The notes under the pieces are model-generated. The model worked only from the letters and a program-made list of their open reading frames with translations, made no database searches and was not told the origin of the DNA. DNA of 64,000 nucleotides from Pseudohalioglobus sediminis (lineage in GTDB: Bacteria; Pseudomonadota; Gammaproteobacteria; Pseudomonadales; Halieaceae): assembly GCF_008370495.1 (NCBI RefSeq), contig NZ_VTUX01000009.1, forward strand, positions 186,376 to 250,375, read 5' to 3'. Shown one piece after another: positions 35,766-51,260 of this stretch (positions are counted from its first letter, which is position 1; the number at the start of each line of letters is the position of its first letter). The position numbers and the translations under genes are program-made.

Positions 35766-36322
35766 GCAGGCGGGAACTGTGCGAAAATGGCGGCTGCCGC
35801 TTCCTGGCGACGGACATCGGCCCGCTCCTGGTCCGGCTCGGGCTGCAGGCGCGACTCAATGATCGAGCGCCACACTGACTGGTTCCTGGCCGGATCAATC
35901 ATATCCACGATAAACGTACCCTGCGTGTATTGGCGCACACTGACATCAGACACCGCAGGCCCACAGCGCCAGCAATTGTAGTAGCTCATGCTGTTATAGG
36001 TGCGTACATCCGTGCGCTCTTCCGTCACCAGGTGCCAGGTGAGATACATATCCGCCTGGCTGTTGTCACTGACAATTTCAAAACCCTTGCGCTGCAGCTC
36101 GTCTGCCAGCGCCTGGTCGATGCGCTGCACCTGGATATCGCTGATCCTGATGTTGGAGAGCTCGGTTCTGTCCACCGGCTGCAGGGCGATCTTGCGCACC
36201 TTGGAGAAATCAAACTGCCCGTCGTAATCCATATTGGCCTCAAGCGTGGACGCACAAGCGACCAGCACACTGACCAGGGTAAGCAATCCAAGCGAGCGAA
36301 CAACGTTAGCGACCATGGGCAA
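35762..36322 (-). CDS. DUF4136 lipoprotein
   Basis: A 186-residue lipoprotein with lipobox LVAC (about 20-23) and the DUF4136 block: 'YDGQFDFSKVRKIALQP', 'IDQALADELQRKGFEIVSDN', 'ADMYLTWHLVTEERTDVRTY' and 'GTFIVDMIDPARNQSVWRS'. The role is unknown. It shares its 3' end with the GNAT gene (convergent). A single-gene unit. Confidence 0.88.
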   Translation of the reverse strand: MPMVANVVRSLGLLTLVSVLVACASTLEANMDYDGQFDFSKVRKIALQPVDRTELSNIRISDIQVQRIDQALADELQRKGFEIVSDNSQADMYLTWHLVTEERTDVRTYNSMSYYNCWRCGPAVSDVSVRQYTQGTFIVDMIDPARNQSVWRSIIESRLQPEPDQERADVRRQEAAAAIFAQFPPA

Positions 36323-36685: not shown

Positions 36686-36732
36686 TGACGTCAATCACTG
36701 CATTTTTCAGTACATCGAGCAGCGTATATACT
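36686..36732 (+). promoter_or_regulatory. Probable promoter of the envelope-machine operon
   Basis: TTTTCA (36704-36709), 17 bp, TATACT (36727-36732): an acceptable sigma-70 pair, about 60 bp before the first gene. Just upstream is the perfect palindrome TGACGTCA (36686-36693), a possible operator. Confidence 0.45.
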
Positions 36733-36794: not shown

Positions 36795-38039
36795 ATGAGC
36801 AAAACGTCCATCACAGCTTTATGGTCATGCATTGTCCTGCTCGCGGGCACGATGAGCGTGCACGCCGCGGCCAACAGTGCGATACCGGAAACGGCTGCCG
36901 CCGAGCCGCTGATGCCGTCGCCGAGAGACGAGGCGCTGACCGCGGAAGAATACCGGGCGCTGGTCACCGACCTGGAATCATCGGCCGGCGCCTATGCGTC
37001 GCAACTGCCTGAGTCACTATTCAGCCTGGGCGTTAGCCTGCAAAGCGAGGGTGAACACCGCGCGGCGATCGCTGCCTTCAAGCGCGGCGTGCACCTGGCA
37101 CGTATTAACGATGGCCTGTACTGTGAACAGCAGGTTCCGATGTTACAACGGGAGATTGCCAGCCACCTGGCACTGGGGCAGTACGCCGAGGCCGACGAGC
37201 GCCAGTCCTACCTGTACCGGGTACAGATGCGCGCGGTGGAAAACGGCAAGGCGCGCGCGCAGGCATTCATGCAACAGGCGCACTGGCAGTACACCGCCTA
37301 CCGATTGGACCTCGACGGCCAGGGTTTTGCCCGCCTGATGAGCATGTGGGACCTCTATCGCCTGGCACTCAACGACATTGCCGGACGCGAGGGGCAAGCG
37401 TCACCCGCCCTGCTGGAACCCCTGGAAGGCATGCTGCTGGCGCAATACCTGATTGCTGACCAGGAACCGCAGGGCATAAATGGTTACCAGGCCAATATCG
37501 ACAATTTCTCCATGCAGCAACAGATGAACCGCTTCAATGCCTATCGCGGGCAGAGCTACAAGAAAGGACAGGCCGTGATTCAGGCCATTTATGACATTCA
37601 GCGCGCTGAACACGGCGAACACAGCCTGGAAACGGCACAGGCTCGCAGGATGCTGGGCGACTGGAAGCTTTGGCACGGCGAGCGGGAATCCGCTATGCGC
37701 GCCTACCGCGAGGCGATAGCGGAACTTACCCCGCGGGATGATGCCGAAGAAATGATAGGGACACTTTTCGGCAAGCCTGTTCCCCTGCCTGATGTTGCCG
37801 GGGCAAGCCAACTGCCACCGGAAGCGGATGCAGGCGAAAACTCGCTGCAACTGCGCTTCACCGTGAACCAGCGCGGCAAGGTGGAAGAACTGGAACGTGT
37901 GGACGACAACGAACTCGATGATGCGGCGGCAAATCGCCTCATGCGCACGCTGCGCAAGACCCCGTTTCGGCCGCGGTTTGCGCTCGGCGAACCCCAGGTG
38001 ACGGAGGCAGTAACAAGATCTTATGCAATTCAACCCTGA
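36795..38039 (+). CDS. Exported helical-repeat protein with TonB-C-like end
   Basis: First gene of the cluster, 414 residues. Signal peptide cut near VHAAA (about 25). The middle (about 60-300) is helical with TPR-like pairs ('LFSLGVSLQSEGEHRAAIAAFKRGVHLA', in part). The last 85 residues resemble the TonB C-terminal fold ('LQLRFTVNQRGKVEELERVD', 'KTPFRPRFALGEP'), a domain that contacts envelope partners. GAGAGGTA precedes the ATG at 36795. No membrane helix beyond the signal, so periplasmic. The next gene starts 1 bp after its stop. Confidence 0.75.
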   Translation: MSKTSITALWSCIVLLAGTMSVHAAANSAIPETAAAEPLMPSPRDEALTAEEYRALVTDLESSAGAYASQLPESLFSLGVSLQSEGEHRAAIAAFKRGVHLARINDGLYCEQQVPMLQREIASHLALGQYAEADERQSYLYRVQMRAVENGKARAQAFMQQAHWQYTAYRLDLDGQGFARLMSMWDLYRLALNDIAGREGQASPALLEPLEGMLLAQYLIADQEPQGINGYQANIDNFSMQQQMNRFNAYRGQSYKKGQAVIQAIYDIQRAEHGEHSLETAQARRMLGDWKLWHGERESAMRAYREAIAELTPRDDAEEMIGTLFGKPVPLPDVAGASQLPPEADAGENSLQLRFTVNQRGKVEELERVDDNELDDAAANRLMRTLRKTPFRPRFALGEPQVTEAVTRSYAIQP

Positions 38040-38040
38040 T

Positions 38041-39165
38041 ATGCCCTCGCTCCTGACCCGCACGCTGGTGCCTGCGGCCATGGTTTGCGCCTGCCTGCTG
38101 TTGACCGGCTGCCCCAGCGCCAGCAATCCGACCCAGCCGCAGCCGCCCTTCCCCCCCACCAGCGGCGGTTCCAGCGCGCCACCCTCGTCGAGCGGCACCC
38201 CCGCCAGCGAGAACTCATCGGCAAGCCAGTCAACGTCAAGCAGTTCCAGTTCCGGCAGTGCCGGCGCGGCCGAGCCCGGCGCCAACCAGTCCGCATCCAC
38301 GGGCGACTCAGACGCTAACAGCGCTGCCGAAGCGTCGGCGGAAAACACGGGCGACCCTGCAGGCGATATCGCGTCTGACTCAGCTGGACAAGCCGGGGGT
38401 GAAGGCAGCCCGGGAGAAAGTGGCTTCGAGCCTGCTGGCACAGGCGGCGCTGGCGAACCCGGCTTTGAGCCAGCTGGCGATACCGGCATTGTGGACATGC
38501 GCGACACCCCCACATTCGAAGACATCAGCGGGGGCATGGGCAACGGCATGGAGGGCGCAGCGGGCAGCGCCGGCGAGGCCGCTGCTGCAGGAACGAGCCC
38601 GGGAACCGGCACGGGAACTGGTGCTGGAACAGGAACAGTCCTCCAACCCGGCAATGACAGCAGCCAATACCCTGGAGGCGTGCCCGGCCAGGGTGCAGAA
38701 CCCGGGGTGCCTTCTGGCCAGGGCACAGGTCGCGGGCCGCTGACCCCGGCGGAACAGGTGGCCATCCTCGACGCCAGGCTGGAACAGGGCACCGGTGATT
38801 TCGACACCATGATACTGGAGGAGCAGGCGCGCCAGAGGCAGGCAACCCGCGAGGGTGCCGCAGAGCAAGCCAGCACCGCCGCCAGCACATCCAGTGGCGC
38901 CTCCGGCGGCAGCGAAAAACGCAGCGAGTATGAAACCGCCAGCGCTGGCAGCGGCAGCTACGGAGGCGGCATCGGCGGGCCCAGCGGCGGCGGACGAGTA
39001 CCTCAAAACACTGCCAAATATCCCCCGCCCGCCGATATTCCGTCCGGTGACAATGACGATGTGGTAGCGCGGCAGCTGCGCGAAGCCGCCATGCGCGAAC
39101 CAGACCCGGCAGTGCGGGAGAAACTGTGGGATGAATACCGCAAATACAAGGGCATAGAGAAGTGA
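38041..39165 (+). CDS. Low-complexity Ser/Gly/Pro lipoprotein
   Basis: 374 residues: signal peptide with lipobox LLTGC (about residue 19-20), then about 180 residues of Ser, Gly, Ala, Pro, Glu and Asn runs, followed by a coiled segment ('AEQVAILDARLEQG', 'ARQRQATREGAAEQA') and a folded end ('DDVVARQLREAAMREPDPAVREKLWDEYRKY', in part). The long disordered arm would let the C-terminus reach deep into the periplasm. No known domain. Start ATG 38041 chosen because it begins the signal peptide. Confidence 0.72.
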   Translation: MPSLLTRTLVPAAMVCACLLLTGCPSASNPTQPQPPFPPTSGGSSAPPSSSGTPASENSSASQSTSSSSSSGSAGAAEPGANQSASTGDSDANSAAEASAENTGDPAGDIASDSAGQAGGEGSPGESGFEPAGTGGAGEPGFEPAGDTGIVDMRDTPTFEDISGGMGNGMEGAAGSAGEAAAAGTSPGTGTGTGAGTGTVLQPGNDSSQYPGGVPGQGAEPGVPSGQGTGRGPLTPAEQVAILDARLEQGTGDFDTMILEEQARQRQATREGAAEQASTAASTSSGASGGSEKRSEYETASAGSGSYGGGIGGPSGGGRVPQNTAKYPPPADIPSGDNDDVVARQLREAAMREPDPAVREKLWDEYRKYKGIEK

Positions 39166-39167
39166 TC

Positions 39168-40388
39168 ATGACGGCGGGGCGCACATGGGTTTACCTGGTG
39201 CTGGCGGCGCTGCTGTCGGGCTGTGTCAGCCAGACTATCAAAACCACCTCGGTACCTGCCATCAATACACCCGGCGAAGCGGTGTCCGAAGCCCTGCTCC
39301 TGGACGTGGGCATCGCCCTCTTCGACCCCGGACTCGACGATTATGACGAGGACCAGCGCATCTACCCGGAAGTACGCAAGGCCGAAGCCCGCTTCATGCC
39401 CAACCTGTTGTCGCAGGCCATGCAGGAAAGCGGCGCCTGGGGCGCAGTGCGCGTGGTGCCAGATCCCGAGCGCATCTCCGACCTGTCAGTGCACGGCACA
39501 ATTCTTTACTCCGACGGCGAAACACTGGAGCTGGCCATTCGCGCCGAGGACTCGCGCGGCTACGAATGGCTGGACAAGACCTACAAGGGGAAGGCCAGCG
39601 CCTATGCCTACAAGGCCAGCACCCGGGAACGCTACGACCCGTTCCAGGCCGTCTACAACACCATCGCCAATGACCTGCTCGAAGCGCTCGACAAGCTGCG
39701 CCCGCAGGACCGGGAAAATGTTCGTCTTACCACCGAGTTATTGTTCGCACAGAGTTTTTCCGAGGAAGCCTTCGCCGGCTACCTGGCCAGGAATCGCAGC
39801 GACGTCTACCTGGTCATGCGCCTGCCCGCGGAGAATGACCCGATGCTGGAGCGCGTGCGCACCATTCGCGAGCGTGATCACCTGTATATCGACACCATGC
39901 AGGAATACTACAACGGCTTCAGTTCGCAAATGGCCGGGCCATACAACGAGTGGCGTAAAGACACCTACGATGAAGCAGTGGAACTGGCGGAGTTGCGGCG
40001 ACGCAGCAACGCACAGATTGTCGGCGGTATTCTCTCGGTAGTGGCTGGCGTATACGGCGCCACGCGCTGTGACAATACACAAAACGACAGTGCCTGCCGC
40101 GCGGCCAGCACCGTGGCAATCGGCGGCGGCGCTGCCATCCTCAAGAGCGGTATGGAGAAGCGCGCGGAAGCGCAGATCCACGTGCAGGCGCTGGAAGAGC
40201 TGGGCCTCTCCCTGGAAGCCGAAATCACACCGCAGATCATCGAGCTCGAGGACAGATCGATCACGCTCAGCGGTAACGTGGAAGAGCAGTACGCGCAGTG
40301 GCGCCAGCTGCTGGCAGATATTTACGCTGCAGAGATCGGCGCACTGGCCGGTCCTGCGGACGATGCTGTCACCACTGATACACTGTAG
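39168..40388 (+). CDS. Lipoprotein of unknown function, cluster member
   Basis: 406 residues. Lipobox LLSGC near residue 20. The body has an early beta-rich part ('LLLDVGIALFDPGLDDYDED'), then alpha-helical stretches, then a hydrophobic glycine-rich segment ('IVGGILSVVAGVYGA', about 285-300; 'VAIGGGAAILKSGM') that could cross or insert in a membrane. No family recognised. ATG 39168 has AGAGAAG upstream; a GTG two codons earlier would overlap the previous gene. Confidence 0.72.
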   Translation: MTAGRTWVYLVLAALLSGCVSQTIKTTSVPAINTPGEAVSEALLLDVGIALFDPGLDDYDEDQRIYPEVRKAEARFMPNLLSQAMQESGAWGAVRVVPDPERISDLSVHGTILYSDGETLELAIRAEDSRGYEWLDKTYKGKASAYAYKASTRERYDPFQAVYNTIANDLLEALDKLRPQDRENVRLTTELLFAQSFSEEAFAGYLARNRSDVYLVMRLPAENDPMLERVRTIRERDHLYIDTMQEYYNGFSSQMAGPYNEWRKDTYDEAVELAELRRRSNAQIVGGILSVVAGVYGATRCDNTQNDSACRAASTVAIGGGAAILKSGMEKRAEAQIHVQALEELGLSLEAEITPQIIELEDRSITLSGNVEEQYAQWRQLLADIYAAEIGALAGPADDAVTTDTL

Positions 40389-40432
40389 ACTGGATTCTAC
40401 CCATTCCGGGGCACAGGGGTTTCACGCGGTAA

Positions 40433-41971
40433 ATGTCTTCCCATAACGAGCAACTGGAGCCGACGCCCTTTGAGCCTGCGCCGGCCCCGAAGGCTGATGC
40501 GCAGTCCGCATCACCGGGCACACCAACCTGGGTGTGGCCAACGCTTGCAGGGCTTGCCGCACTGGCGGTGCTGGTTGTGTTCTGGTTACCCTCCAAGGTG
40601 GGCCAGCGCTCGCCTGACGCTGCCGGGACGGCCGCGGCGACAGCAACCGAAACGACACAGGACACCACGCCGCCGGCCACGCGCACACCCGTGGACCAGC
40701 CCGCTGCAGCAGATGCCTCACCCTGGTCCGAAGCCCAGGCAGCACGTTTGCGCAAGGAGGCAAAATCGGTACTGCAGAGCCTGCTGGACCTGCAGTTCAC
40801 GCTCGAGGAACGCGGTGCCGCGCAATGGGCCGCGGATGACTGGGCCACGGCCACCGCTTCAGCACAGGCCGGCGACGAACTTTACCGTCAGCGCCAGTAT
40901 GTCGACGCCAGGGATCAATATGCCCAGGCCCTGCAGCAACTGGAGGCCATCGAGTCACAGATACCGGCAACGATAGACACCACCATCGAGACGATTCGTG
41001 CTGGCCTGGAAGCGGGATCCCGGCAACAGGTAACCGCAGGGATAGAGACACTGACGCTGCTGGCGCCGGATCACGACCAGCTTGCAGGACTGCAGGCGCG
41101 CGCAGCGGCGCTGGAAGCCGTGGCGGAGCGCCTGGCGACCGCGGCATCGGCAGAAGCCGAAGGTGATCTCGGCCGTGCCGAAACCCTGCTGGGCGAGGCG
41201 GTGGCACTGGACCCGCAGCACCAGCGCGCTGCTGCCGAGCTGGCTCGCGTCAGCGCGGCCTATATCGACCAGCGCTTCAACGACGCCATGAGCGAAGGCT
41301 ACGCAGCACTGGACCGGGGCGCCTACGACAGCGCCCGCGAACAGTTTCGCACCGCTGCGGCACTCAAGCCCGGCGCCGGCGAAGCAGGCAGTGCCATCGT
41401 GGAAGTGGACAGCGCGCAGCAGGCGAGCAGGCTCAGCGCCATCAAATCACGGGGAAACCGGCTTGAGCAAGGCGAACAATGGCAGCAGGCGGTTGCCGCC
41501 TACCGCAGTGCCCTGGAGCTGGACCCGAACATACTGTTTGCCCGCGAAGGCCTGCAGCGCAGCCAGGCGCGGGCGCGACTGGATAAGCAGTTACGGCAGT
41601 TCATGGAAAAACCGGAGCGGCTATCTGACATCGCCGTGGCAGAATCCGCGGGCACACTGTTAAGAAACGCACGCGCCATTGAACCCAGGGGAGCGCTACT
41701 CACCCAGCAGATAGCGGCGCTGGAAAACCTGCTACAGGATTACAACAGGACAATACCGGTAACCCTGCGCTCGGACGGCGAGACCGAGGTAATCGTCTAC
41801 AAGATCGCACGCCTCGGCCGCTTTACCGAAACACAACTGGAGCTTCGTCCCGGCAGCTACCGGGTGCGCGGCAGTCGACTGGGATACCGCGATGTATTGC
41901 ACACACTGGACATCAGCCCACAGGACCGAAGTCCAAGCCTGACCGTCAGCTGTACGGAGCGCATTCCTTGA
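40433..41971 (+). CDS. Membrane-anchored TPR protein with PEGA-like end
   Basis: 512 residues. A cytoplasmic N-terminus, one membrane helix (about 34-52, 'PTLAGLAALAVLVVFWLP'), then a periplasmic helical domain with several TPR-like repeats (about 100-400; 'AERLATAASAEAEGDLGRAETLLGEAVALDP' in part) and a C-terminal PEGA-like sheet (about 435-510; 'QLELRPGSYRVRGSRLGYRDV'). TPR and PEGA both bind proteins or cell-wall-associated partners. The ribosome site is weak. It overlaps the next gene by 4 nt (TTGA). Confidence 0.75.
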   Translation: MSSHNEQLEPTPFEPAPAPKADAQSASPGTPTWVWPTLAGLAALAVLVVFWLPSKVGQRSPDAAGTAAATATETTQDTTPPATRTPVDQPAAADASPWSEAQAARLRKEAKSVLQSLLDLQFTLEERGAAQWAADDWATATASAQAGDELYRQRQYVDARDQYAQALQQLEAIESQIPATIDTTIETIRAGLEAGSRQQVTAGIETLTLLAPDHDQLAGLQARAAALEAVAERLATAASAEAEGDLGRAETLLGEAVALDPQHQRAAAELARVSAAYIDQRFNDAMSEGYAALDRGAYDSAREQFRTAAALKPGAGEAGSAIVEVDSAQQASRLSAIKSRGNRLEQGEQWQQAVAAYRSALELDPNILFAREGLQRSQARARLDKQLRQFMEKPERLSDIAVAESAGTLLRNARAIEPRGALLTQQIAALENLLQDYNRTIPVTLRSDGETEVIVYKIARLGRFTETQLELRPGSYRVRGSRLGYRDVLHTLDISPQDRSPSLTVSCTERIP

Positions 41972-44031
41972 ACCCGCAGGACAACCACAACCCAATCCAG
42001 CCCAGTGCGTTCGAGCCATTGTCTGCGCACGCACCGCAGGCACAACGCCAGCGCCATCCCTGGCGCTGGGCACTGGGCGCGGTGGCGCTGCTGTTCCTGC
42101 TGATAATGGGATTTCTGCTTAGCGCCCGCTCACTGCAGATATCGGTACAGGCAAGCGCGCCAGTGGACATCGACATCGATGCCATCACCCTGCCTTTCGG
42201 CAATCGCTATCTGATCAGGCCCGGCGTCTACCGGGTGCGGGCTACCGCCGAGGGCTACCACCCGCTGGAAATCAGCGTCACTGTCACCGATGAGGACAGC
42301 CAGCGCAGCGAACTGGTGATGGCGCCGCTACCCGGCAAGCTGGATATTGTGTCGCAGCCCTCCGGAGCCAGGGTCTTCATCGACGAGCAACACGTCGGTG
42401 ACACACCACTGCAGTCACTGTCGGTAGAGGCAGGCACATATACCCTGCGCCTGCAGGCCGAGCGCTACCTGGCACATGAACAGCAGCTCGAGGTGGAAGG
42501 ACGCAACAGCTCACAGCAATTCACCATTGCGCTGCAACCGGGATGGGCTGAAGTGAGTGTCAGCAGCACTCCCGCAGGTGCACAAATACTGCTGGACGGT
42601 GAAGTGGCCGGCGTTACACCGGCGAAACTGGAAGTCATGCAGGGTGAGCACCAGCTGATGCTGCAGCATCCGACTCACGCCGACTGGCAACAGGACCTCG
42701 AAATTACCGCCGGCATGGCACAGGACCTCGGTAACATAACTTTGCAGGCGGCCGCTGGCCTGCTGCAGCTGGACAGCCAACCCAGCGGCGCCAACGTCAC
42801 CCTGGACGGGGAATTCCAGGGGCAAACGCCACTGGAGCTGGCGGTATCGCCGGGGCGCCCGCATCGCCTGTCCCTGTCCAAGCCGGGCTATCGCCGTTTC
42901 AGCGAAGAGATCAGCATGCAGGCCGCGCAGCGCGACACGCGCACGGTCAGGCTGAGTGCCAGGCTGGGCGAGGTGAATTTCCGCATCTCACCGGCACAGG
43001 CAACACTGCGTATCAACGGAGTACCCAGGGGTACGGGCAGCCAGGTGCTGTCATTACCCGCGGTAGAGCAACGAGTGGAGATTGCGCTCGACGGCTACGC
43101 CACTGTCAACCGGCGCATCACCCCCAGGCCGGGACTACAGCAGCTGGTTGAGGTGTCCCTGAAAACCGAGGCCCAGGCCCGCGCAGCGCGCATACCCTCA
43201 CAGGTGATTTCCGCGCTGGGGCAGACACTGCTGCTGTTCGACCCGGCGCAGTCACCCAACGCTGACTTCACCATGGGCGCCTCCCGGCGCGAGCCCGGTC
43301 GACGCGCCAACGAGGTGCTGCATCCGGTGGCGCTGCGACGCAGCTTCTACCTGCAGACGACGGAAGTGACCAACGCCCAGTTCCGGCTCTTCGACCCCAA
43401 ACACGACTCCGGCCAGATCGAGGGCAACAGCCTGAATCGCGACCACCAGCCCGCGGTCCAGGTCAGCTGGCAGCAGGCGGCGGCGTTCTGCAACTGGCTC
43501 AGCAAGCGCGAGGGCCTGCCGCCTTTCTACCGCGAGAGCAACGGCATCATTACCGGCTACAACCCTTCCGCAACAGGGTATCGCCTGCCCAGCGAGGCCG
43601 AGTGGGCCTGGGCCGCGCGCAGCAACGGCGCGACACTGCTGAAATTTCCCTGGGGCGACACTTTTCCGCCCGTCGACGCGGTGGAGAACTACGCCGACAA
43701 TACGTCCGCCTACGTGACCGGCCGCATCCTCAGTGGTTACCGCGATGGACACGTTGTCAGTGCGCCTGTCGGTTCGTTCCCGGCCAGCGCGCGCGGCCTG
43801 TATGATATGGGCGGCAATGTCGCCGAATGGGTACACGACGTGTACATCATCCCGTCGGCCAACGGTGACACCGAAACCGACCCGCTGGGCGCCCAGTCGG
43901 GCGACAACTACGTGATTCGTGGCGCCAGTTGGTCGCACAGCCGGATCGGCGAGTTGCGTCTCTCCTACCGCGATTATGGGCAAGCCGGACGCGATGACGT
44001 AGGATTCAGGATTGCGCGATATGCGGAGTAA
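41968..44031 (+). CDS. Membrane-anchored five-PEGA protein with degenerate FGE domain
   Basis: 687 residues from a TTG start (GGAG 8 nt upstream; no ATG precedes the membrane helix). A membrane helix (about 32-51) is followed by five tandem PEGA-like repeats of about 70 residues (54-400; e.g. 'LDIVSQPSGARVFIDEQHVG', 'LLQLDSQPSGANVTLDG'), then a formylglycine-generating-enzyme (SUMF1) fold (about 415-685; 'TTEVTNAQF', 'YRLPSEAEWAWAARS', 'GGNVAEWVHDVY', 'GFRIAR'). The two copper-binding cysteines of true FGEs are absent: the region reads 'IRGASWSHSRIGELRLSYRDYG'. A structural role is likely. Confidence 0.85.
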   Translation: MNPQDNHNPIQPSAFEPLSAHAPQAQRQRHPWRWALGAVALLFLLIMGFLLSARSLQISVQASAPVDIDIDAITLPFGNRYLIRPGVYRVRATAEGYHPLEISVTVTDEDSQRSELVMAPLPGKLDIVSQPSGARVFIDEQHVGDTPLQSLSVEAGTYTLRLQAERYLAHEQQLEVEGRNSSQQFTIALQPGWAEVSVSSTPAGAQILLDGEVAGVTPAKLEVMQGEHQLMLQHPTHADWQQDLEITAGMAQDLGNITLQAAAGLLQLDSQPSGANVTLDGEFQGQTPLELAVSPGRPHRLSLSKPGYRRFSEEISMQAAQRDTRTVRLSARLGEVNFRISPAQATLRINGVPRGTGSQVLSLPAVEQRVEIALDGYATVNRRITPRPGLQQLVEVSLKTEAQARAARIPSQVISALGQTLLLFDPAQSPNADFTMGASRREPGRRANEVLHPVALRRSFYLQTTEVTNAQFRLFDPKHDSGQIEGNSLNRDHQPAVQVSWQQAAAFCNWLSKREGLPPFYRESNGIITGYNPSATGYRLPSEAEWAWAARSNGATLLKFPWGDTFPPVDAVENYADNTSAYVTGRILSGYRDGHVVSAPVGSFPASARGLYDMGGNVAEWVHDVYIIPSANGDTETDPLGAQSGDNYVIRGASWSHSRIGELRLSYRDYGQAGRDDVGFRIARYAE

Positions 44032-44034
44032 GAC

Positions 44035-44295
44035 ATGAGCATCCGAGCAGCCGTGATAACGGCGGCACTGTTTGCCACACTTGCCAGCGGCGTCCTGCTG
44101 GCGCAGCAGGCGGATCCGGCTGAAAAAGAGGACGGGACTGCGACTGCCTCCGCCAACCCGGGCACCGGAGCTGAATCCGGGCAGACGCCAGGCCGTGACG
44201 AGGCCGCGCCGGCTGGTGACAGCGATCCATTCGACTACGAATCGTCTGAGCAGATTTCAGAAGACCTGTCGGTCTCCTTCCCGGTGGATATTTAG
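44035..44295 (+). CDS. Small exported acidic protein
   Basis: 86 residues: a signal peptide (cut near LAQQA, about 24) and a short acidic, Gly/Ala/Ser-rich tail ending 'DLSVSFPVDI'. GGAG stands 7 nt before the ATG. It sits 3 bp after the PEGA/FGE gene and just before the channel gene. No family recognised; it may be a small accessory subunit or periplasmic plug. Confidence 0.6.
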   Translation: MSIRAAVITAALFATLASGVLLAQQADPAEKEDGTATASANPGTGAESGQTPGRDEAAPAGDSDPFDYESSEQISEDLSVSFPVDI

Positions 44296-44304
44296 GGCCT
44301 ACCC

Positions 44305-45099
44305 ATGAAACAAAGGATGTCATCCGAATTCATTTACCAGCTGTTCGCGCTGCTCATCGCGGTCATCGTGGTGCACGCCGTGTACGTGGGCGCGATTCGG
44401 CCCGCCGCGGATGCACAGATCCGCGAGGAAATGGCGCTGCAGGCTGCCGGCGCCGACTACGTACCCGAGCGCAGTTTCGTCGTGGTGATCCGCGATTTCG
44501 AGCAGGAGGCCTGTTTTATCCTGTTGATCTGGGCGCTGGCGATTATGGGCTACAAAGGCAGGCGCACGCTGCGCGAGCAATCGCTGCTCGATCGGCGCCT
44601 GCTGGATATTCCCGAGGGCACCAGCGTGCTGCCCGCCGACGCCCGCGAGTACAGTCGCTCACTGGAGGCCCTGCCCGATGAGGAGCAAGATTACCTGCTG
44701 CCGCGCACCCTGCTCTCGGCGCTACAGCGATTCGCCACCACGGGCAGTATCCAGGCGGTGTCGGACACCATCAAGGAGAGCTGTGAGATTGAAGCCGACC
44801 GGCTCGATTCTGAGCTGTCCATGGTGCGTTACATCGCCTGGGCCATTCCCTCGATCGGTTTTATCGGCACCGTGCGCGGTATCGGCGAAGCGCTGGGGCA
44901 GGCCTACAAGGCCGTGGAAGGCGATATCACCGGTGTAACGGTAAGCCTTGGAGTGGCCTTTAACAGCACCTTCGTCGCCCTGGTGCTGTCCATCATTATC
45001 ATGTTCTGCCTGCACCAGCTGCAGCTTTCGCAGGAGCGCCTGGTGCTGGATTGCCAGCGCTATGCGGACAAGCGCCTGCTGCGGCACCTTGTCTCCTGA
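44305..45099 (+). CDS. MotA/TolQ/ExbB-family proton channel protein
   Basis: 264 residues with an inner-membrane topology of four helices: about 10-30, 70-86, 176-198 and 210-240. The last two and the loop between them are the MotA_ExbB signature ('AIPSIGFIGTVRGIGEALG', 'GVTVSLGVAFNSTFVALVLS'). In this superfamily five copies surround two single-helix partners and pass protons. No ExbD/TolR/MotB gene is adjacent; the two vWA proteins downstream may take that place. Its stop overlaps the next start in TGATG. Confidence 0.88.
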   Translation: MKQRMSSEFIYQLFALLIAVIVVHAVYVGAIRPAADAQIREEMALQAAGADYVPERSFVVVIRDFEQEACFILLIWALAIMGYKGRRTLREQSLLDRRLLDIPEGTSVLPADAREYSRSLEALPDEEQDYLLPRTLLSALQRFATTGSIQAVSDTIKESCEIEADRLDSELSMVRYIAWAIPSIGFIGTVRGIGEALGQAYKAVEGDITGVTVSLGVAFNSTFVALVLSIIIMFCLHQLQLSQERLVLDCQRYADKRLLRHLVS

Positions 45100-46352
45100 T
45101 GACTGTCGCCCTGCTGGACATCAACGACTGCAACCTGCAGCTCTGGGGCAGCACACGCCTTGTGCAGAGCCCCGGTTATGCACTGCTTGAGGGTAGCGAA
45201 TACCGCTTTGGCAGCGACGCCAGGGGGCGCGCCCGCCTGCAACCACGAGCAATCAACAATCGCTTCTGGTGGCAACTGAACACGGAAGCACTGCAACCCT
45301 CATTGGGACCCGCACGACACACGGCTGACCTCGCCCATGCGCATCTGCAGTGCATTCACCGGGAGGGCGGCGAGCCGACGGAACTGCTGCTGGCCTGTCC
45401 CGGGAGCATGCAGCGCGAGCAGCTGAGCCTGTTACTGGGCATCGCCCAACAATGCCCCTTCCAGGCCGTGGGCCTGGTGCATCGCAGCGCCCTGCTGGGC
45501 AGCCTGCACGGCGGTAATGGGCCACTGTTCCACCTCGAGCTGCAGCTGCACCAGGCCCTGGTCACGCAACTGCAGGCAGACGGCAAAGAAATAACAGTGC
45601 AGCGCGCAGTGCCGCTCCCTGGCTGCGGCATGCTCCAGGTGCAGGAACATCTGGTGACCGTTGTTGCCAACGCCTTCATCCAGCAAACCCGCTTCGATCC
45701 GCGACGCAAGGCGGCAACTGAGCAACAGCTCTACGACGCGCTGCCGTCTGCGCTGCAGTCACTGGCCGTGCAGGCAGAGACCAATATCGAGATCAACGGC
45801 TATCGTGCCAGGGTGTCAAACACAGACATGGCCACTGCCGGCACGCGCCTGTTTACAGCTGCGGCCGATGCCGTGAAGAAAGAGGCGGCAGGCGCACAGG
45901 TAATCGTAGACCCATTGCCGGCCATGCTCCCGGGGTTGCACACACACTTTGGCAATCTGCAGGTGAGTGACGGGGATGCTCTCTGGCAGGCAGCGCAGCG
46001 GCACGGGGGAGCGCTGGTCAATCGCGAAACGGCACTGAGCTTCATTGCCACCCTGCCCTGCCTGGGCGGCGAACAGGTGACTGCAATAACCCCGGAGCCC
46101 GTCGCCGAACCGGAGGTGATCGAGCCCGTCAGCCATCCCACGCACCTGTTGATCGGGGCCAGTGCGCAAGCACTGGCAACTCACATGGACGCCGCACCCG
46201 GGCTGAGCCTGGAACAGGACGACCGCGGCTGGCGACTGTGCGACACCGCGGTCGTCAATGGTGCCAGTTGTCACGCCGGCACTGTCCTGCGCACCGGCGA
46301 CCGCATTGCCCTGGGCGATACGGTGGCCCTGTTGATTGAGGTGCAGCCATGA
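45099..46352 (+). CDS. Cytoplasmic actin-like (Hsp70-fold) protein with FHA-like end
   Basis: 417 residues without signal or membrane segment. The first ~200 residues have the layout of the actin/Hsp70 ATPase fold: beta-strand start 'VALLDINDCNLQLW', 'LLLACPGSMQREQLSLLLGI' like the Hsp70 'VPA.F...QR' block, and 'PFQAVGLVHRSALLGSL' like 'INEPTAAAL'. The glycines of the nucleotide loops are poorly kept. The last ~70 residues ('DTAVVNGASCHAGTVLRTGDRI') look like an FHA domain. Assignment is by pattern only. It is coupled to the channel gene. Confidence 0.6.
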   Translation: MTVALLDINDCNLQLWGSTRLVQSPGYALLEGSEYRFGSDARGRARLQPRAINNRFWWQLNTEALQPSLGPARHTADLAHAHLQCIHREGGEPTELLLACPGSMQREQLSLLLGIAQQCPFQAVGLVHRSALLGSLHGGNGPLFHLELQLHQALVTQLQADGKEITVQRAVPLPGCGMLQVQEHLVTVVANAFIQQTRFDPRRKAATEQQLYDALPSALQSLAVQAETNIEINGYRARVSNTDMATAGTRLFTAAADAVKKEAAGAQVIVDPLPAMLPGLHTHFGNLQVSDGDALWQAAQRHGGALVNRETALSFIATLPCLGGEQVTAITPEPVAEPEVIEPVSHPTHLLIGASAQALATHMDAAPGLSLEQDDRGWRLCDTAVVNGASCHAGTVLRTGDRIALGDTVALLIEVQP

Positions 46353-46408
46353 ACCGCTTGCACAGCGCGCACAACAAGCCCTGCCTGCAGTCAGCGATGC
46401 GGGCGTGA
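46349..46408 (+). other. Possible 19-codon coupled mini-ORF
   Basis: ATGA overlaps the previous stop; the frame reads MNRLHSAHNKPCLQSAMRA and ends just where the Shine-Dalgarno GAGGTG of the first vWA gene lies. It could carry ribosomes to the next start or be chance. Confidence 0.3.
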
Positions 46409-46417
46409 GGTGCGGCC

Positions 46418-47512
46418 ATGGCAAGGAAACAGAAACGCCAGTTCACCACATTCAACCTCAGCTTCCTGGACATCATGTCCTGCGGCTTTGGTGCGGTGGT
46501 GCTGGTATTTCTGATCATCGATCACTCCATGGCGGTGCACTCACGCGACCTTAACCAGGACCTGCTTGCAGAAGTGGATTTCCTCGAGGAGGAGGTCACC
46601 GAGGGCGAGGCCGGACTGGTGCGCCTGCGCAATACGCTTTCAGACCTCGATATGCAGATGGTGGAAGCCAACGGCCGCGCCACGCGTATCAGTGAGGAAA
46701 TCGAGGAGTATGAAGCCCTGATTGCGGCGCTGCGCACGGACGGCTACACCGAAAGGGAAGACATCGAGCAACTCAAGGCCGAGATACAATCCCTGGAACA
46801 GGAAGTGAAAAAACTGCGCGAATCGGCACCGGAACCCGGTGGCGACAGTGCGCGGACCTTCATTGGCGAGGGCAACCGACAGTACCTGACCGGTCTCAAC
46901 CTGGGCGGACGACATATCGCCATCCTGCTGGACGTATCGTCGAGCATGCTCGCAGACCGACTTGTAAACATCATTCGTCTGCGCAACATGGGCGAAGATG
47001 TGCAACGCCGGGCCGACAAGTGGAAACGGGCACTGGAAACCGTTGACTGGCTGACGGCACAGCTGCCCGTGAGTTCGGACTACCAGGTGATAACCTTTAA
47101 CACCCAGGCGACTCCGGCCCTGGCGGGCACCGAAGGCAAGTGGCTGGAGGTCGCCAACCAGGCACAGCTGGAACAACTGTCGCAGGCGTTGCGCAAGATT
47201 GTTCCCGGGGGCGGTACCAGCCTGGAAAACGCCTTCATCGCGCTGCAGCGGCTGAACCCGGCACCCGATAACATTTTCCTGATCACCGACGGCCTGCCCA
47301 CCCAGGGCACCAGCGCGCCGCGCGGCAGCAAAGTCAGTGGCAAGGAGCGGCTGGCGCTGTACCAGAAAGCCGTGCGCCAGTTACCTGGTGGCGTGCCGGT
47401 GAACATCATCCTGGCGCCAATGGAGGGCGATCCCATGGCTGCGGCGGCATTCTGGCAGCTGGCCCAGGGCAGCAATGGTTCATTCCTGAGCCCCTCGAAG
47501 GACTGGCCCTGA
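46418..47512 (+). CDS. Membrane-anchored vWA-domain protein, paralogue 1
   Basis: 364 residues. A basic N-terminus (MARKQKRQF), a membrane helix (about 14-34, 'LSFLDIMSCGFGAVVLVFLI') with Asp18 at its start, a periplasmic coiled coil (about 45-135) and a vWA domain (about 160-360). The MIDAS metal site is complete: DVSSS (D172, S174, S176), the Thr of 'GGGTSLENA' and 'ITDGLPTQG'. The helix resembles the ExbD/TolR helix 'PFIDVMLVLLIIF', where the Asp carries the proton. GAGGTG precedes its ATG. Its stop overlaps the next start. Confidence 0.85.
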   Translation: MARKQKRQFTTFNLSFLDIMSCGFGAVVLVFLIIDHSMAVHSRDLNQDLLAEVDFLEEEVTEGEAGLVRLRNTLSDLDMQMVEANGRATRISEEIEEYEALIAALRTDGYTEREDIEQLKAEIQSLEQEVKKLRESAPEPGGDSARTFIGEGNRQYLTGLNLGGRHIAILLDVSSSMLADRLVNIIRLRNMGEDVQRRADKWKRALETVDWLTAQLPVSSDYQVITFNTQATPALAGTEGKWLEVANQAQLEQLSQALRKIVPGGGTSLENAFIALQRLNPAPDNIFLITDGLPTQGTSAPRGSKVSGKERLALYQKAVRQLPGGVPVNIILAPMEGDPMAAAAFWQLAQGSNGSFLSPSKDWP

Positions 47513-48510
47513 TGGCGCGGCGGCGAGCAACAGAAGAGTTCTCCCTCTCCTTCCTGGACGTCATCTGTTGTGGCTTTGGCGCGGTGATCCTGTTGCTGAT
47601 GATCACCAAGACGGTGGAGCCACAGATAATCGAGGCCTCCACCGTCAACCTGAAAGGCAGGCTTGCCGACCTGCAGGAGCAGCTGTACGAGATTCGCGGG
47701 GATTCCGTGGTGCTCAATCGCGACCTGAATGCAAAGCACGAGCAGCTGTCGGAGTACGAGGAGCGAATCGCGATCCTGCGCGGCCAGCTGGCCAGCGCGC
47801 GCTCCCGGCACGACAGCATCCAGGTTCAGCGCAACAGCAATGATGTGGTCAGCGAACAGCTGGCGATTGCCCGCCAGCAACTCAGCGCGGAAATGAAGCG
47901 GCTGCTGGGCACGCAATACCAGTCGAAGAATAACCTGATTGGCGGGATTCCCGTCGACAGCGAGTACATTATCTTCATCATCGACACGTCCGGCTCCATG
48001 TTCTCCTACGCCTGGGAGCGCATGATCAACGAGGTCGAGGCCACCCTGAGTATCTATCCGGAGGTCAAGGGCATCCAGGTGATGAATGACATGGGGCAAT
48101 ACATGTTCAGCCGCTACCGGGGGCAGTGGATTCCCGACTCTCCGGGGCGCCGCCAGGTAATCATGCAAAATCTCAGGAACTGGAACGTGTTCAGCAACTC
48201 CAGCCCCGTGGAAGGCATTACCGCAGCCATTCGTACGTTTTATGATCCGGGCAAGAAAATAAGCCTGTATGTGTTCGGGGACGAGTTCACCGGCAATTCG
48301 ATAGCAGAGGTGGTGGCAACCGTGGATCGTATCAACCGCGAGGATGCGCAGGGCAACCGGCTGGTGCGCATCCATGGGGTCGGATTTCCCGTACAATTTA
48401 TCCGTGCGCCGCATTTGCAGGCAACCGGAATACGGTTTGCTACGCTGATGCGTGAACTGGCCTATCGCAATGGAGGAACATTTGTTGCGCTCAATGATTA
48501 CCGCCCCTGA
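47512..48510 (+). CDS. Membrane-anchored vWA-domain protein, paralogue 2
   Basis: 332 residues, built like the previous protein: MARRRATEEF, helix 'LSFLDVICCGFGAVILLLMI' with Asp16, coiled coil (about 40-130), then a vWA domain (about 150-330) with MIDAS DTSGS (D158, S160, S162). The second metal-site Thr is less clear. Both paralogues share FLD(I/V)-x2-CGFGAV in the membrane helix, so a heterodimer is likely. It is translationally coupled to the first (TGATG). Confidence 0.85.
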   Translation: MARRRATEEFSLSFLDVICCGFGAVILLLMITKTVEPQIIEASTVNLKGRLADLQEQLYEIRGDSVVLNRDLNAKHEQLSEYEERIAILRGQLASARSRHDSIQVQRNSNDVVSEQLAIARQQLSAEMKRLLGTQYQSKNNLIGGIPVDSEYIIFIIDTSGSMFSYAWERMINEVEATLSIYPEVKGIQVMNDMGQYMFSRYRGQWIPDSPGRRQVIMQNLRNWNVFSNSSPVEGITAAIRTFYDPGKKISLYVFGDEFTGNSIAEVVATVDRINREDAQGNRLVRIHGVGFPVQFIRAPHLQATGIRFATLMRELAYRNGGTFVALNDYRP

Positions 48511-49228
48511 TAACAGGCTGTTCAGCGCTGTACTGGTACTCACCGCGATGCTACTCGCCGGCTGTGGGCCCACGCACGTGAAAGTGGAGGGCAATTTCCC
48601 CGCACCGCTGATGGAACCGGTGCCTTTGAAACTGGGCGTCTGGTATCCCGAAGAATTCGCCACGCATGAGTTCTTTGACGAAGCCAAGAGCCGCAGGGAG
48701 TCCAGTTGGGTGGTGAACACCGGGGATGCGCAGGTGGCGATGTGGGATACGCTGCTCAGCGGCATGTTCTCTGAGCTGACCCACATGAAAGGACGGCCGT
48801 CGCCGTCACAGATGAACCAGGTGGTCGACGCGGTACTGATTCCGAGTGTTGACGAACTGCAGTACGCGATTCCCCAGCATACCAACGTCAAAGTCTATGA
48901 GATATGGATGCGCTACCGCTTCGAACTGGTCACGGTCAGAGGTAAACCCATCGCCGAATGGACCATGTCGGCTTATGGCAAGACCCCGACCGCATTCCTG
49001 CGCAGTGACCAGGCCGCCGTCAACCTGGCCGCGGTGATGGCACTGCGTGACGCAGGGGCGAACTTTGCCACCAACTTTACCCGGGTACCGGAAGTGGCCG
49101 CCTGGATGCAGAGCAAACCTGCTCGCCGTGGCGCTGCGGCGGCTACAGCGCCCGGAGCCAAAGCGTCGCCCGTCAATGAGTCGGCAGGTGGTCAGGCAGG
49201 AGCCGAGCGACAGGAGGACTCAAAATGA
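48485..49228 (+). CDS. Lipoprotein of unknown function, cluster member
   Basis: 247 residues from a TTG start at 48485, behind GGAGGA with 7-nt spacing; ATGs at 48470 and 48494 are alternatives. Signal peptide with lipobox LLAGC, then a globular domain with 'LKLGVWYPEEFATHEFFDEA', 'TLLSGMFSELTHM', 'VYEIWMRYRFELVTV'. The Ala/Pro-rich tail may be flexible. No family recognised. It overlaps the end of the second vWA gene. Confidence 0.7.
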   Translation: MRSMITAPDNRLFSAVLVLTAMLLAGCGPTHVKVEGNFPAPLMEPVPLKLGVWYPEEFATHEFFDEAKSRRESSWVVNTGDAQVAMWDTLLSGMFSELTHMKGRPSPSQMNQVVDAVLIPSVDELQYAIPQHTNVKVYEIWMRYRFELVTVRGKPIAEWTMSAYGKTPTAFLRSDQAAVNLAAVMALRDAGANFATNFTRVPEVAAWMQSKPARRGAAAATAPGAKASPVNESAGGQAGAERQEDSK

Positions 49229-49884
49229 TCAAATACTGTTTGCCGTTCGCCCTGGGTACATTGCTATTGCAAGGCTGCGTTACGTCCACCGTCGATGAGA
49301 TGGTATTCAACGAACCCGTTGAGGGCATCGGCGACGCCACGGTAGTGATTCTCGGCCGCCGGCATGCCAGTGATTACGAAACTGAACCGGACTTCATAGA
49401 GTGCGTCGGCGACCACATTTCCTCACGCGACAAGACCATCACCGTGGTAGATGAAATCGAGTTCGTCAATTCCCTGTACCCCTGGTTCGAGCCCCGCACC
49501 GCCCCCCTGCACCCGGCAGACATAGAGCGCCTGCTGGAACAGGAACCGGTTGCAGAGCGCATGCGCGAGCTCAAGACGGAGTACATGATCTGGATTGACG
49601 GTGTCACCGTGCGATCAGACTCCGCAGGCTCCATGACCTGCGGTATCGGCCCCGGGGGCGCGGGTTGTTTTGGCTTTGGCACCTGGAGCAACGACTCCAA
49701 CTACGAGGCCGTGATCTGGGACTTTACTGATCGCGCCGAGGTCGGCCGTGTCAACACCACGGCCAGCGGCCAGTCCTACATGCCCGCAGTGGTTGTGCCC
49801 ATCCCCATCATCGCCCCGGTGCAGGGCACGGCGTGTGACGGGATCGGTGACCAGCTTCTGGAATTCCTCTCCAGCGAGTATTGA
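49225..49884 (+). CDS. Lipoprotein of unknown function, cluster member
   Basis: 219 residues with lipobox LLQGC (about 14-18). 'DATVVILGRRHASDYE', 'KTEYMIWIDGVTVRSD', a Cys/Gly-rich loop ('TCGIGPGGAGCFGFGTW') and a hydrophobic C-terminal stretch ('AVVVPIPIIAPVQG') stand out. AGGAGG precedes the ATG, which overlaps the previous stop (ATGA). Family unknown. Confidence 0.72.
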   Translation: MIKYCLPFALGTLLLQGCVTSTVDEMVFNEPVEGIGDATVVILGRRHASDYETEPDFIECVGDHISSRDKTITVVDEIEFVNSLYPWFEPRTAPLHPADIERLLEQEPVAERMRELKTEYMIWIDGVTVRSDSAGSMTCGIGPGGAGCFGFGTWSNDSNYEAVIWDFTDRAEVGRVNTTASGQSYMPAVVVPIPIIAPVQGTACDGIGDQLLEFLSSEY

Positions 49885-51260
49885 TGATGCCTTTCGCCCG
49901 CCTGCTACTGGCCTGCCTGATCGGCTTCGGCGCGACCCTGTCACTGGCTGACAGTGCCGGTGAAGAGGGGCACCAGAAGATTGTCGCCTCGGGCCAGGTC
50001 TATGAAGATCCGGAACTGCAGGAGTACATTAATCGCGTCGGCCAGCGCCTGGTCGCCAATTCAGACAGCCCGAAACAGAAGTTCACTTTCACCGTGCTGG
50101 ATTCGGAAACCATCAATGCCTTTGCTGCACCCGATGGTTTCATCTACATCAGCCGCGGCCTGCTGCCTTATCTCGACTCGGAGGCGGAACTGGCCGGCGT
50201 GCTCGCCCACGAGATAGGACATGTCACCGCCAACCACCACGGGCGTCGCGGGCGGGCCGACATCACCAGCAAAATTGTCGCTACTACCGCCTACATTCTT
50301 ACTGGCAGCCGCGACCTGGCCGACGTCTCCACGATGTACGGTGCGGAACTGATCAGCGGCTATGGCCGGGAAATGGAGCTGGAAGCAGATCGCCTCGGTG
50401 CCGAGTACATGCACCGCACCGGTTACGATCCGCAGGCCCTGCTCCAGGTTATCGGGGTGCTCAAGGACCAGGAACAGTTTCAGCGTGTCAAGGCCAAGGC
50501 CACGGGCAAGCCCGCCGGCACCTACCACGGCCTCTACGCGACCCACCCGCGCAATGACAAACGCCTGCAGGAGGTGATCCGTAAAGCCGGCGAGCTGGAA
50601 CTGGACGAGTACCAGGAAAGCCCGGAACAACCCGGCGAATTCCGCCGTCACCTGCAGGGGCTGGTATGGGGAAAAAGCGTGCAGGGGCAACGCGAGGAAA
50701 ACCGCTACTATCACAACAAGCTGGCGTTCACCTTTGAACACCCGGATGGTTGGACAGTTGCCTCGGGCAGTCAGTCGATTGTAGCCAGTGCACCTGACGG
50801 GAGCGCCTCACTGACTGTTACCCTGCGCCGTCGCGACCGCAATGCGCCGCCGGAACAAGTGCTCAACGACAGCGCCCGGGGCAGCCTTGCCGAGGCCGCG
50901 CCACTGGATCAGGCCGGGCTCAAGGGCTATACCGCCATCGCCAGCAGCGGTGGCACCTCCAAGCGGCTGGCAGTGATTGACTACAACTATACCTACCTGT
51001 TCGAGGGGCAGGGCCAGGGACCGGCCGCCGACGCGACACTGCTGCAGATCATTCAGAGTTTTCGACCACTGCATCCGCGGGAAAGACAGGCCGGCACGCC
51101 ACGCTATGTGGATTATGTGCAGGTGCCCAGGGGCGCCACCTTCGCCACGATCGCTGCCAGCATCCGCATACCCTATGCAGAGGAACAGCTGCGCCTGCTC
51201 AATGGCATGTATCCGCGTGGGGAACCCCGCACCGGGGACTGGATCAAGGTCATCCGCTGA
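49884..51260 (+). CDS. Periplasmic M48-family metalloprotease with C-terminal extension
   Basis: 458 residues. Signal peptide (cut near LADSA), then an M48 peptidase domain with the zinc motif HEIGH (about 110) and the third ligand in 'ELEADRLGAEYM'; 'YATHPRNDKRL' is the usual C-terminal mark. The extension (about 240-458) has a beta-rich part and a LysM-like end ('ATIAASIRIPYAEEQLRLLNG'). BepA-like relatives check outer-membrane assembly. Start taken at ATG 49884, coupled to the previous stop; 49887 is an alternative. It closes the operon. Confidence 0.88.
   Translation: MMPFARLLLACLIGFGATLSLADSAGEEGHQKIVASGQVYEDPELQEYINRVGQRLVANSDSPKQKFTFTVLDSETINAFAAPDGFIYISRGLLPYLDSEAELAGVLAHEIGHVTANHHGRRGRADITSKIVATTAYILTGSRDLADVSTMYGAELISGYGREMELEADRLGAEYMHRTGYDPQALLQVIGVLKDQEQFQRVKAKATGKPAGTYHGLYATHPRNDKRLQEVIRKAGELELDEYQESPEQPGEFRRHLQGLVWGKSVQGQREENRYYHNKLAFTFEHPDGWTVASGSQSIVASAPDGSASLTVTLRRRDRNAPPEQVLNDSARGSLAEAAPLDQAGLKGYTAIASSGGTSKRLAVIDYNYTYLFEGQGQGPAADATLLQIIQSFRPLHPRERQAGTPRYVDYVQVPRGATFATIAASIRIPYAEEQLRLLNGMYPRGEPRTGDWIKVIR

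Follow-up and report, generated by a model that had tools for sequence, protein, structure and literature searches.

An envelope gene cluster of Pseudohalioglobus sediminis that probably encodes a proton-driven motor related to Tol

Introduction

Do thirteen closely packed envelope genes of Pseudohalioglobus sediminis encode a single machine and, if so, what would drive it and to what end? The genes, here called g1 to g13, lie in a 64,000-nucleotide stretch of the genome (contig NZ_VTUX01000009.1, positions 186,376 to 250,375), which was analysed as a whole and is referred to below as the window. To our knowledge few machines driven by the proton-motive force (PMF) span the envelope, namely Tol, Ton, the flagellar stators, the type IX secretion and gliding motors and Agl-Glt. 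An initial annotation, made from the letters of the window, had put the cluster forward as a candidate ion-driven machine and had not recognised in it any described system. The analysis reported here indicates that the cluster probably specifies a trans-envelope PMF motor which is related to Tol and works in the manner of the type IX motor.

Results

The thirteen genes occupy window positions 36795..51260, all on the plus strand and at the coordinates first proposed, and eight of the twelve junctions between them are overlaps, the other four being gaps of 3, 9, 44 and 65 nt. A Pfam scan of the genes bore out the domain list of the initial annotation save for small changes: matches above the Pfam cut-offs were MotA_ExbB in g7, vWA in g9, TPR in g4, four stretches of PEGA together with FGE in g5, and M48 in g13, and the vWA of g10 and the TPR of g1 lay below cut-off.

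By sequence, g7 (44305..45099) is a subunit of a TolQ/ExbB/MotA-like proton channel (PF01618, 2.5e-14), of the TolQ type and with both pore threonines: T189 and T222 align with T145 and T178 of Escherichia coli TolQ, and threonine is found at these places in 95 of 95 g7 proteins (94 different sequences). The first and second vWA proteins, g9 (46418..47512) and g10 (47512..48510), each carry, where their single membrane helix (the transpore helix; SFLDIMSCGFGAVVL and SFLDVICCGFGAVIL respectively) begins, an aspartate of the TolR type; a coiled coil, for which family matches were obtained in both, comes next, and then a vWA domain whose DxSxS metal site is complete. Asp18 of g9 is present in 96 of the 96 sequences with a residue there (7 of 103 are gapped) and Asp16 of g10 in 94 of 94 (93 different sequences), and the metal ion-dependent adhesion site (MIDAS) motif DxSxS is complete in 103/103 g9 and 94/94 g10 proteins; these residue counts drop three g7, one g9 and nine g10 open reading frames (ORFs) by length. 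No ExbD or TolR model matched in the unit, in which g7, g9 and g10 stand in one run. The channel and the two single-helix vWA proteins of the initial annotation are thus supported by the conservation of the pore threonines, the aspartates and the MIDAS, and PMF drive of the machine is highly probable.

Two other kinds of conserved residue were observed in these helices. N220 of g7, in the third channel helix and two residues before the second pore threonine, is invariant (95/95) where TolQ has isoleucine, and may be a mark of this motor family. A cysteine of the transpore helix (C22 in g9, C20 in g10) is invariant in nine-row alignments, and E. coli TolR has no cysteine there.

A core of this kind has already been predicted in the literature: Williams-Jones et al. 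(2025; PMC12204202, section 8) report a second family of vWA proteins that lies beside tolQ homologues without tolR or exbD, mostly as heterologous pairs, with a transpore helix, a conserved aspartate and a ring of threonines, and give no function for it within that section. This TPH-vWA/TolQ core is almost certainly the same as that of g7, g9 and g10, since the window unit likewise has a TolQ homologue with a heterologous vWA pair, the TolR aspartate and no TolR/ExbD match, and T189 and T222 of g7 (95/95) correspond to the conserved threonine ring of the channel. Unlike our cluster, however, the systems of section 8 come with no named PEGA/FGE hub, lipoproteins, Hsp70/FHA protein, kinase fusion or protein ending in P-x-D-I; in the main text of the same paper the term ‘PEGA’ is absent and ‘FHA’ occurs only within FhaC, and a term search of the text of a 2026 review that cites it (PMC12905483) returned no ‘vWA’. 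No paper that links PEGA or FGE to a TolQ/vWA cluster was found in the literature searched, which was mostly open-access and without bioRxiv. The statement that the set is not a described system therefore has to be given up for the motor core and kept, within these sources, for the remainder, i.e. the PorK-like FGE/PEGA hub, the Hsp70-fold/FHA protein, the kinase-fused relatives, the TolB-N/CsgG-like lipoprotein and the P-x-D-I protein g6, none of which was found in print in this setting.

The likeness to Tol-Pal lies in the TolQ-type channel, the TolR-type aspartate and the resemblance of g3 to the N-terminal domain of TolB, whereas the unit gave no match to a TolA, TolB or Pal model and g7 scores 25.8 against a curated TolQ cut-off of 221. 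The genome carries tolQRAB-pal-cpoB elsewhere (L192; tolA by position), as well as two ExbB-ExbB-ExbD-like sets and another ExbBD-like pair, with PF01618 matched at eight places including that of the window. Replacement of Tol by the cluster was considered and rejected because of this complete, separate tolQRAB-pal-cpoB set. In one relative (L025, 1-7096) the end of the cluster adjoins genes that by eye resemble yebC-ruvCAB-ybgC-tolQRA, i.e. the tol operon.

A MotA/TolQ-like motor with a non-flagellar partner is also what is seen in Zorya ZorAB, and a phage-defence or conflict system of that kind was weighed. A PADLOC scan of ten of the thirteen proteins gave for g7 a weak match to ZorA (E 0.008) and no ZorB or effector match; the ten yielded no convincing defence model, the matches being weak or to coiled coils. 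Defence islands are patchy, whereas these genes belong to the core set of a family and stand among housekeeping genes: among ten ORFs scanned with Pfam around the cluster (one without a hit), the neighbours are what we take to be hflK, mutL, an amidase gene, psd, phoH and RNase R-like and tex-like genes. A role in defence is accordingly hardly credible.

The second main part of the proposed machine is g5 (41968..44031), which has a transmembrane helix, four PEGA domains (3.7e-52) and an FGE-fold domain (9.2e-40). The best match of the latter in the PDB is PorK (E about 1e-17, residues 490-684), followed by FGE itself (1.5e-12), and against NCBIfam GldK ranks first (3.5e-28), although TIGR03525 gives 99.1 bits, far under its cut-off of 350. 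None of 88 different full g5 C-termini has a cysteine in the last 60 residues, the region in which the catalytic cysteine pair of FGE presumably lies. The FGE fold of g5 is hence PorK-like and without cysteines near its end, and is carried on four PEGA domains and a membrane helix. PMC12421860 describes PorK as lacking the catalytic cysteines and as docking PorN in the former substrate groove, and gives PorLM, a PMF motor, as the presumed drive of the PorK/PorN ring. Because PorK is a cysteine-less docking hub linked to a PMF motor, we speak of a motor that works like that of type IX, without claiming membership, and the comparison with the FGE lipoprotein of the Gld system made in the initial annotation gains from PorK being the best PDB match of g5. 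As in the PorLM/GldLM motor with its PorKN ring, a PMF motor would act on a cysteine-less FGE-fold protein, the docking hub being documented for PorK in the same source. There are clear differences: here vWA heads sit on the axle, g5 is anchored by a transmembrane helix on PEGA repeats and is not an outer-membrane lipoprotein, and its GldK score (99 against 350) is low. No PorM/GldM, PorN or Sov model matched the genes scanned, the rest of the genome not having been searched for them.

On the inner-membrane side g5 is joined by g4 (40433..41971), with an N-terminal transmembrane helix, TPR repeats (TPR_2, 2.6e-11) and, by eye, a PEGA-like C-terminus. Homologues of g4 are fused to a Hanks-type Ser/Thr kinase in L026 (Pkinase, 3.9e-29) and L027 (3.3e-30), and that of L110 has a Pkinase match below cut-off (9.3e-4). 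An FHA domain that by eye seemed present at the N-terminus of g5 in the same three loci was not called by Pfam and is not claimed. Two lipoproteins precede them. In g3 (39162..40388) residues 34-184 resemble TolB-N/CsgG/PelC/FlgT, with long helices and a glycine-rich, low-confidence stretch (289-325) besides; that its N-terminal half is like these folds is a weaker claim, taken from the model. The Ser/Gly-rich lipoprotein g2 (38023..39165) is probably disordered, and has a conserved C-terminal motif, DDDVVARQLREAAxREPDPxxREKLWxEYRKYK, both halves of which occur in 71 of 75 different sequences (87/91 hits of the hidden Markov model, HMM). Searches for solved relatives by sequence gave none up to E 1 for g12 and nothing better than E 0.16 for g3 and g11.

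The resemblance of g3 to CsgG and PelC, the PorK-like fold of g5 and the adjoining M48 protease g13 could together be read as a secretion or surface-display motor like type IX, in which g3 forms an outer-membrane ring or pore and g13 processes the cargo. The thirteen genes have no Pfam match to an outer-membrane barrel, in a genome not searched for cargo or translocons, and the FPVDI end of g6 is found once in the genome, so that it is no cargo tag common to many proteins; we regard secretion as unlikely.

The most telling feature of the cluster was passed over in the initial annotation, which had correctly listed g6 (44035..44295) as a small exported acidic protein. Its free C-terminus ends SEDLSVSFPVDI, and 81 of 81 g6 proteins found by HMM end in P-x-D-I, most often SEDLSVSFPVDI, with the stop codon in view in 80 (the 81st being an inverted copy at the contig edge of L052). 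The relatives vary in length and in most of their sequence, and the end is nearly invariant. In the compact clusters described below, where the g6 HMM fails, a small exported or membrane ORF ending P-x-D-I was found in 13 of 13 intervals between g5 and g7, including one read by eye (MPSDI, L029); these equivalents are 41-94 aa long, and that of a further compact cluster (L197) ends LPQDI. Among 93 sequences there are 89 different DNA 36-mers and 42 different 12-residue ends, from which it follows that the peptide is conserved and not the DNA; twelve of the 93 had been chosen by their P-x-D-I end, and the g5-g7 interval is the fair count. In 87 of 95 loci a script located a P-x-D-I ORF immediately before g7, and of its eight misses five have a g6 found by HMM (L052, L053, L084, L099, L112), one has g6 elsewhere in the cluster (L028), one is the tail found by eye in L029, and L035 truly lacks such an ORF.

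In 398 genomes of the phylum the DNA pattern for FPVDI plus stop gave 22 matches (nine with the reversed-pattern control), six of which read TGG and have no stop; of the remaining 16, 14 are located at the cluster itself, in as many of its 16 carrier genomes, and two fall in the other 382. The end is unique in the genome of P. sediminis. For seven of eight compact ORFs, possible signal-peptidase sites, located with a crude pattern, would leave about 17-20 residues; all that the compact forms export may be a peptide of that length, released by signal peptidase.

As to what the tail binds, the sister loci without a PEGA hit (L035, L194, L195) have no P-x-D-I end that we could find, which leans weakly to g5 as its partner; L194 does have an FGE domain, but fused to a kinase. 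Docking of the tail on g5, in the former FGE substrate groove, is our first guess and a tentative one, and docking on a vWA domain, with the aspartate on the metal site, is a more doubtful second. The tail SFPVD may be likened to C/S-x-P-x-R, which we take to be the sulfatase motif read by FGE, and the likeness is weak because the serine position also takes T, P, A or L.

The sister system (L035 7121-11749; L194 5359-13910; L195 1-8423) shares with the window the TolQ-like channel and a related helix (SALDLFAS.MGAF or SALDLFASALGAF), and differs in having one vWA or TPH protein where the window has two vWA proteins. Its loci also hold PP2C phosphatase and FHA genes, one kinase gene, and kinase-FGE, trypsin-FHA or FHA-ABC transporter genes.

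Whether the gene families occur together and in the same order, as the initial annotation had asked, was addressed with a profile search with g10 over a genome collection, from which the best 80 of at least 559 loci were mapped with HMMs for all 13 genes; these are mostly near relatives, from one family and its neighbours. Gene order is almost always conserved, apart from odd extra HMM matches in L052 and L053 and a reversed g13 in L103. Where the flank suffices, presence ranges from 62/68 for g13 to 79/79 for g9, with g2 in 56/58, g3 in 58/60, g4 in 60/62, g5 in 65/67, g6 in 68/68, g7 in 69/69, g8 in 71/72, g10 in 77/77, g11 in 73/74 and g12 in 69/72, whereas the best of the other flanking families reaches 37/80. 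For g1 the 80 loci gave no countable case (0/0) and longer flanks were needed; with these, 13 of 18 loci proved to have it upstream of g2, a rough count from an HMM built on few sequences, one of which (L026, on the other strand) is doubtful.

Genomes of another class (L149-L155, L158) have a compact cluster, as do L030 and L031, made up of g2, g3, g4, g5, a tiny ORF, g7, g9 and g10, and because the compact clusters of another class hold only these genes, the sequences define a universal core of eight, g2, g3, g4, g5, g6, g7, g9 and g10, to which g1, g8, g11, g12 and g13 are additions. The genome of HTCC2080 has the compact set as a second copy (L177, where g2 was not called by HMM). The thirteen genes, seen initially as one set, are thus co-inherited as regards g2-g13, with g1, g8, g11, g12 and g13 outside the universal core. 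Rearrangements are few: the channel gene has moved behind g10 in L028, and g12 sits upstream of g2 in L176.

Some further loci show other arrangements. Second compact copies beside another copy (L177 1571-8979, the same stretch as L196, so that L196 repeats L177 in the g6 comparison; L197 3729-11339) indicate that the two forms can coexist, and a g3 paralogue may stand alone without the rest of the cluster (L178 9621-10697, G000:C11), as appears to be so in many genomes of the family. L156 (1986-2644) has two small ORFs between g5 and g6 that by eye are like a Phd-type antitoxin and a PIN toxin. A record titled as a Klebsiella pneumoniae metagenome-assembled genome (L113) carries the cluster, which is otherwise listed in marine-type Gammaproteobacteria, and is possibly a mislabelled bin.

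No family for g3 was found in the libraries searched, which makes it a clean marker. Across the 398 genomes of the phylum it was found in 16, and these are exactly the genomes in which g10 matches strongly (E of 2e-86 or below); three further genomes have g10 matches near 1e-4 and no g3 found. Across 185 genomes of the class, g3 occurs in 11, all of them among the 13 with g10 or its paralogue g9. Of the remaining two, one is a fragmented assembly that has g5-g6-g7-g9 on a contig of 4.6 kb (L034), and the other has the sister system L035. Of 100 host-family genomes, 94 give a match to the g10 profile (in G674 and G681 the only match is g9-like), 91 have cluster-type g3 (E < 1e-100) and 89 have both. 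Restricted to good genomes of the family the figure for g10 is 73 of 75, and order-wide it is 35 of 145, 31 of them strong. By these comparisons the set behaves as one inherited unit, and that its parts form one machine is, in our judgement, very likely.

The rival view of two functions in one operon, i.e. a TolQ/vWA motor (g6-g10) and an unrelated lipoprotein/PEGA assembly (g2-g5), is favoured by TolQ/vWA motors without PEGA in the sister loci and by L100 and L109, which keep g2-g5 and g6-g13 as separate blocks. In these two the cluster lacks g2-g5, but g2-g3-g4-g5 stand in order elsewhere in the same genome, on another contig for L100 and about 27 kb away on the same contig for L109 (L161, L162). 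Both blocks are thus still in one genome, and independent blocks should also occur alone, whereas g3 and g10 pick out an identical set of 16 genomes among 398; this view is improbable.

Among the matches listed, the titled sequences nearest to g10 come from Halieaceae (91% identity in L037, 90% in Pseudohalioglobus), and carriers include Luminiphilus and HTCC2080, which we take to be plankton bacteria. A genome of 1.3 Mb (G717, listed as 100% complete) keeps g2-g12 (L188; the stretch begins inside g2). A premature TAG suspected in g10 of genus g382 was rejected for the one genome examined, where the frame is open (L187). Spread on plasmids was looked for in 72,556 plasmid records, with no g10 match at E 1e-5.

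These data also bear on the idea of a motor for gliding or surface motility like that of Agl-Glt or Gld, for which a TolQ-like motor with TPR, FHA and TonB-like parts and a GldK-like FGE protein would speak. Near-universality in the host family, retention in the 1.3 Mb genome and the presumably planktonic carriers count against it, as does the lack of any motility gene, by eye and with no dedicated search made, in the 22 commonest flanking families; we consider motility very unlikely.

Among the additional genes, g8 (45099..46352) is cytoplasmic and, as modelled, has the Hsp70 nucleotide-binding domain fold (1-310) followed by an FHA-like C-terminal domain, which makes it the actin/FHA-like protein of the initial annotation. 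Its nucleotide motifs are degenerate: the patterns IDxGTT and GGGT, which we take to be the Hsp70 phosphate-binding motifs, each occur in one of 29 sequences. FHA is found in relatives of g8 and weakly, by profile, in the window copy. The accessory g1 (36795..38039) is an exported TPR protein with a TonB-C-like C-terminus; the TonB-C-like character first assigned to it gave no TonB_C match in the window copy and holds for the family, with TonB_C in 9 of 14 members at E <= 0.1 (best 3.8e-5), TPR_12 in 14/14 and a profile match to the solved TonB domain of TonB2 (PDB 2k9k, E 3.8e-8). The others are the lipoproteins g11 (48452..49228; true start probably some codons downstream) and g12 (49225..49884), for which no family was found and whose lipobox cysteine is present in 22/22 and 19/19 sequences respectively, and g13 (49881..51260), an exported M48 metalloprotease (PF01435, 5.3e-36).

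Upstream of g1 lies a sigma-70-like promoter candidate (36704..36732, plus strand), a weak one given two found in the scanned region against 3.1 expected by chance. A DUF4136 lipoprotein-like gene (3.8e-30; window 35762-36322, minus strand) is divergent from the cluster just upstream of g1.

Discussion

The reading that we consider probable, a Tol-related PMF motor that works like that of type IX, suggests the following mechanism. Five g7 subunits would surround one g9 and one g10 helix, in line with the 5:2 complex expected of the TPH-vWA/TolQ family (PMC12204202), in which the pair of helices sits within the pentamer, and proton flow would turn or rock this unequal pair. The vWA heads would then grip and move a scaffold made up of g4 and g5 from the inner membrane and g3 and g2 from the outer membrane, in a manner close to that in which PorM engages the ring of PorK and PorN. 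The tail of g6 would dock as a peptide, either in the FGE groove of g5 or through its aspartate on a vWA metal site. From the cytoplasm g8, as an Hsp70-like pseudo-ATPase with FHA, would set the machine on or off, in relatives together with the kinase on g4. Least certain is the output, which might be the movement of lipoproteins, lipids or other cargo between the membranes, for outer-membrane maintenance beside Tol-Pal; we put this last proposal forward as possible, somewhat short of an even chance.

Several observations weigh against this account. No finding points directly to the output, and the binding site of the g6 tail is a guess. Channel and vWA genes without PEGA, the counter-example that the initial annotation had named, do exist in the sister system (L035, L194, L195), which has a TolQ-like channel with a single vWA or TPH protein and no PEGA hits. 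The signalling part g8 is missing from most compact clusters, the kinase on g4 occurs in only three loci, one of them below cut-off, and the TM-scores behind the fold resemblance of g3 are low, about 0.2. In the host family g10 is matched without a strong g3 in five genomes (G594, G599, G624, G672, G678), g3 occurs without a g10 match in two (G635, G653), and neither is present in four (G607, G627, G663, G684). The conservation of gene order is partly shared descent, because the 80 loci, the best among at least 559, come mostly from one family and its neighbours.

A stronger form of the proposal, that this is a separate machine class with an asymmetric 5:1:1 motor, a PorK-like FGE/PEGA hub and TolB/CsgG-like lipoproteins, gated by phosphorylation and needing a peptide whose P-x-D-I C-terminus docks on the hub, is open to more doubt than the motor itself and is offered as a possibility that falls below evens. 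PMF motors of the 5:2 kind are known, and the present core has been published as a prediction; no description of the full module, the hub, the signalling or the peptide end was found in the literature searched, as far as those sources extend. If correct, the proposal joins the world of TolQ motors to that of the FGE hubs of type IX secretion and adds phospho-signalling to it. Two invariant handles, the aspartate pair and the four-residue C-terminus, make the mechanism directly testable by point mutation in cultured strains, in a system that almost every member of a marine bacterial family has, that persists even in a genome of 1.3 Mb and that P. sediminis has in addition to Tol-Pal.

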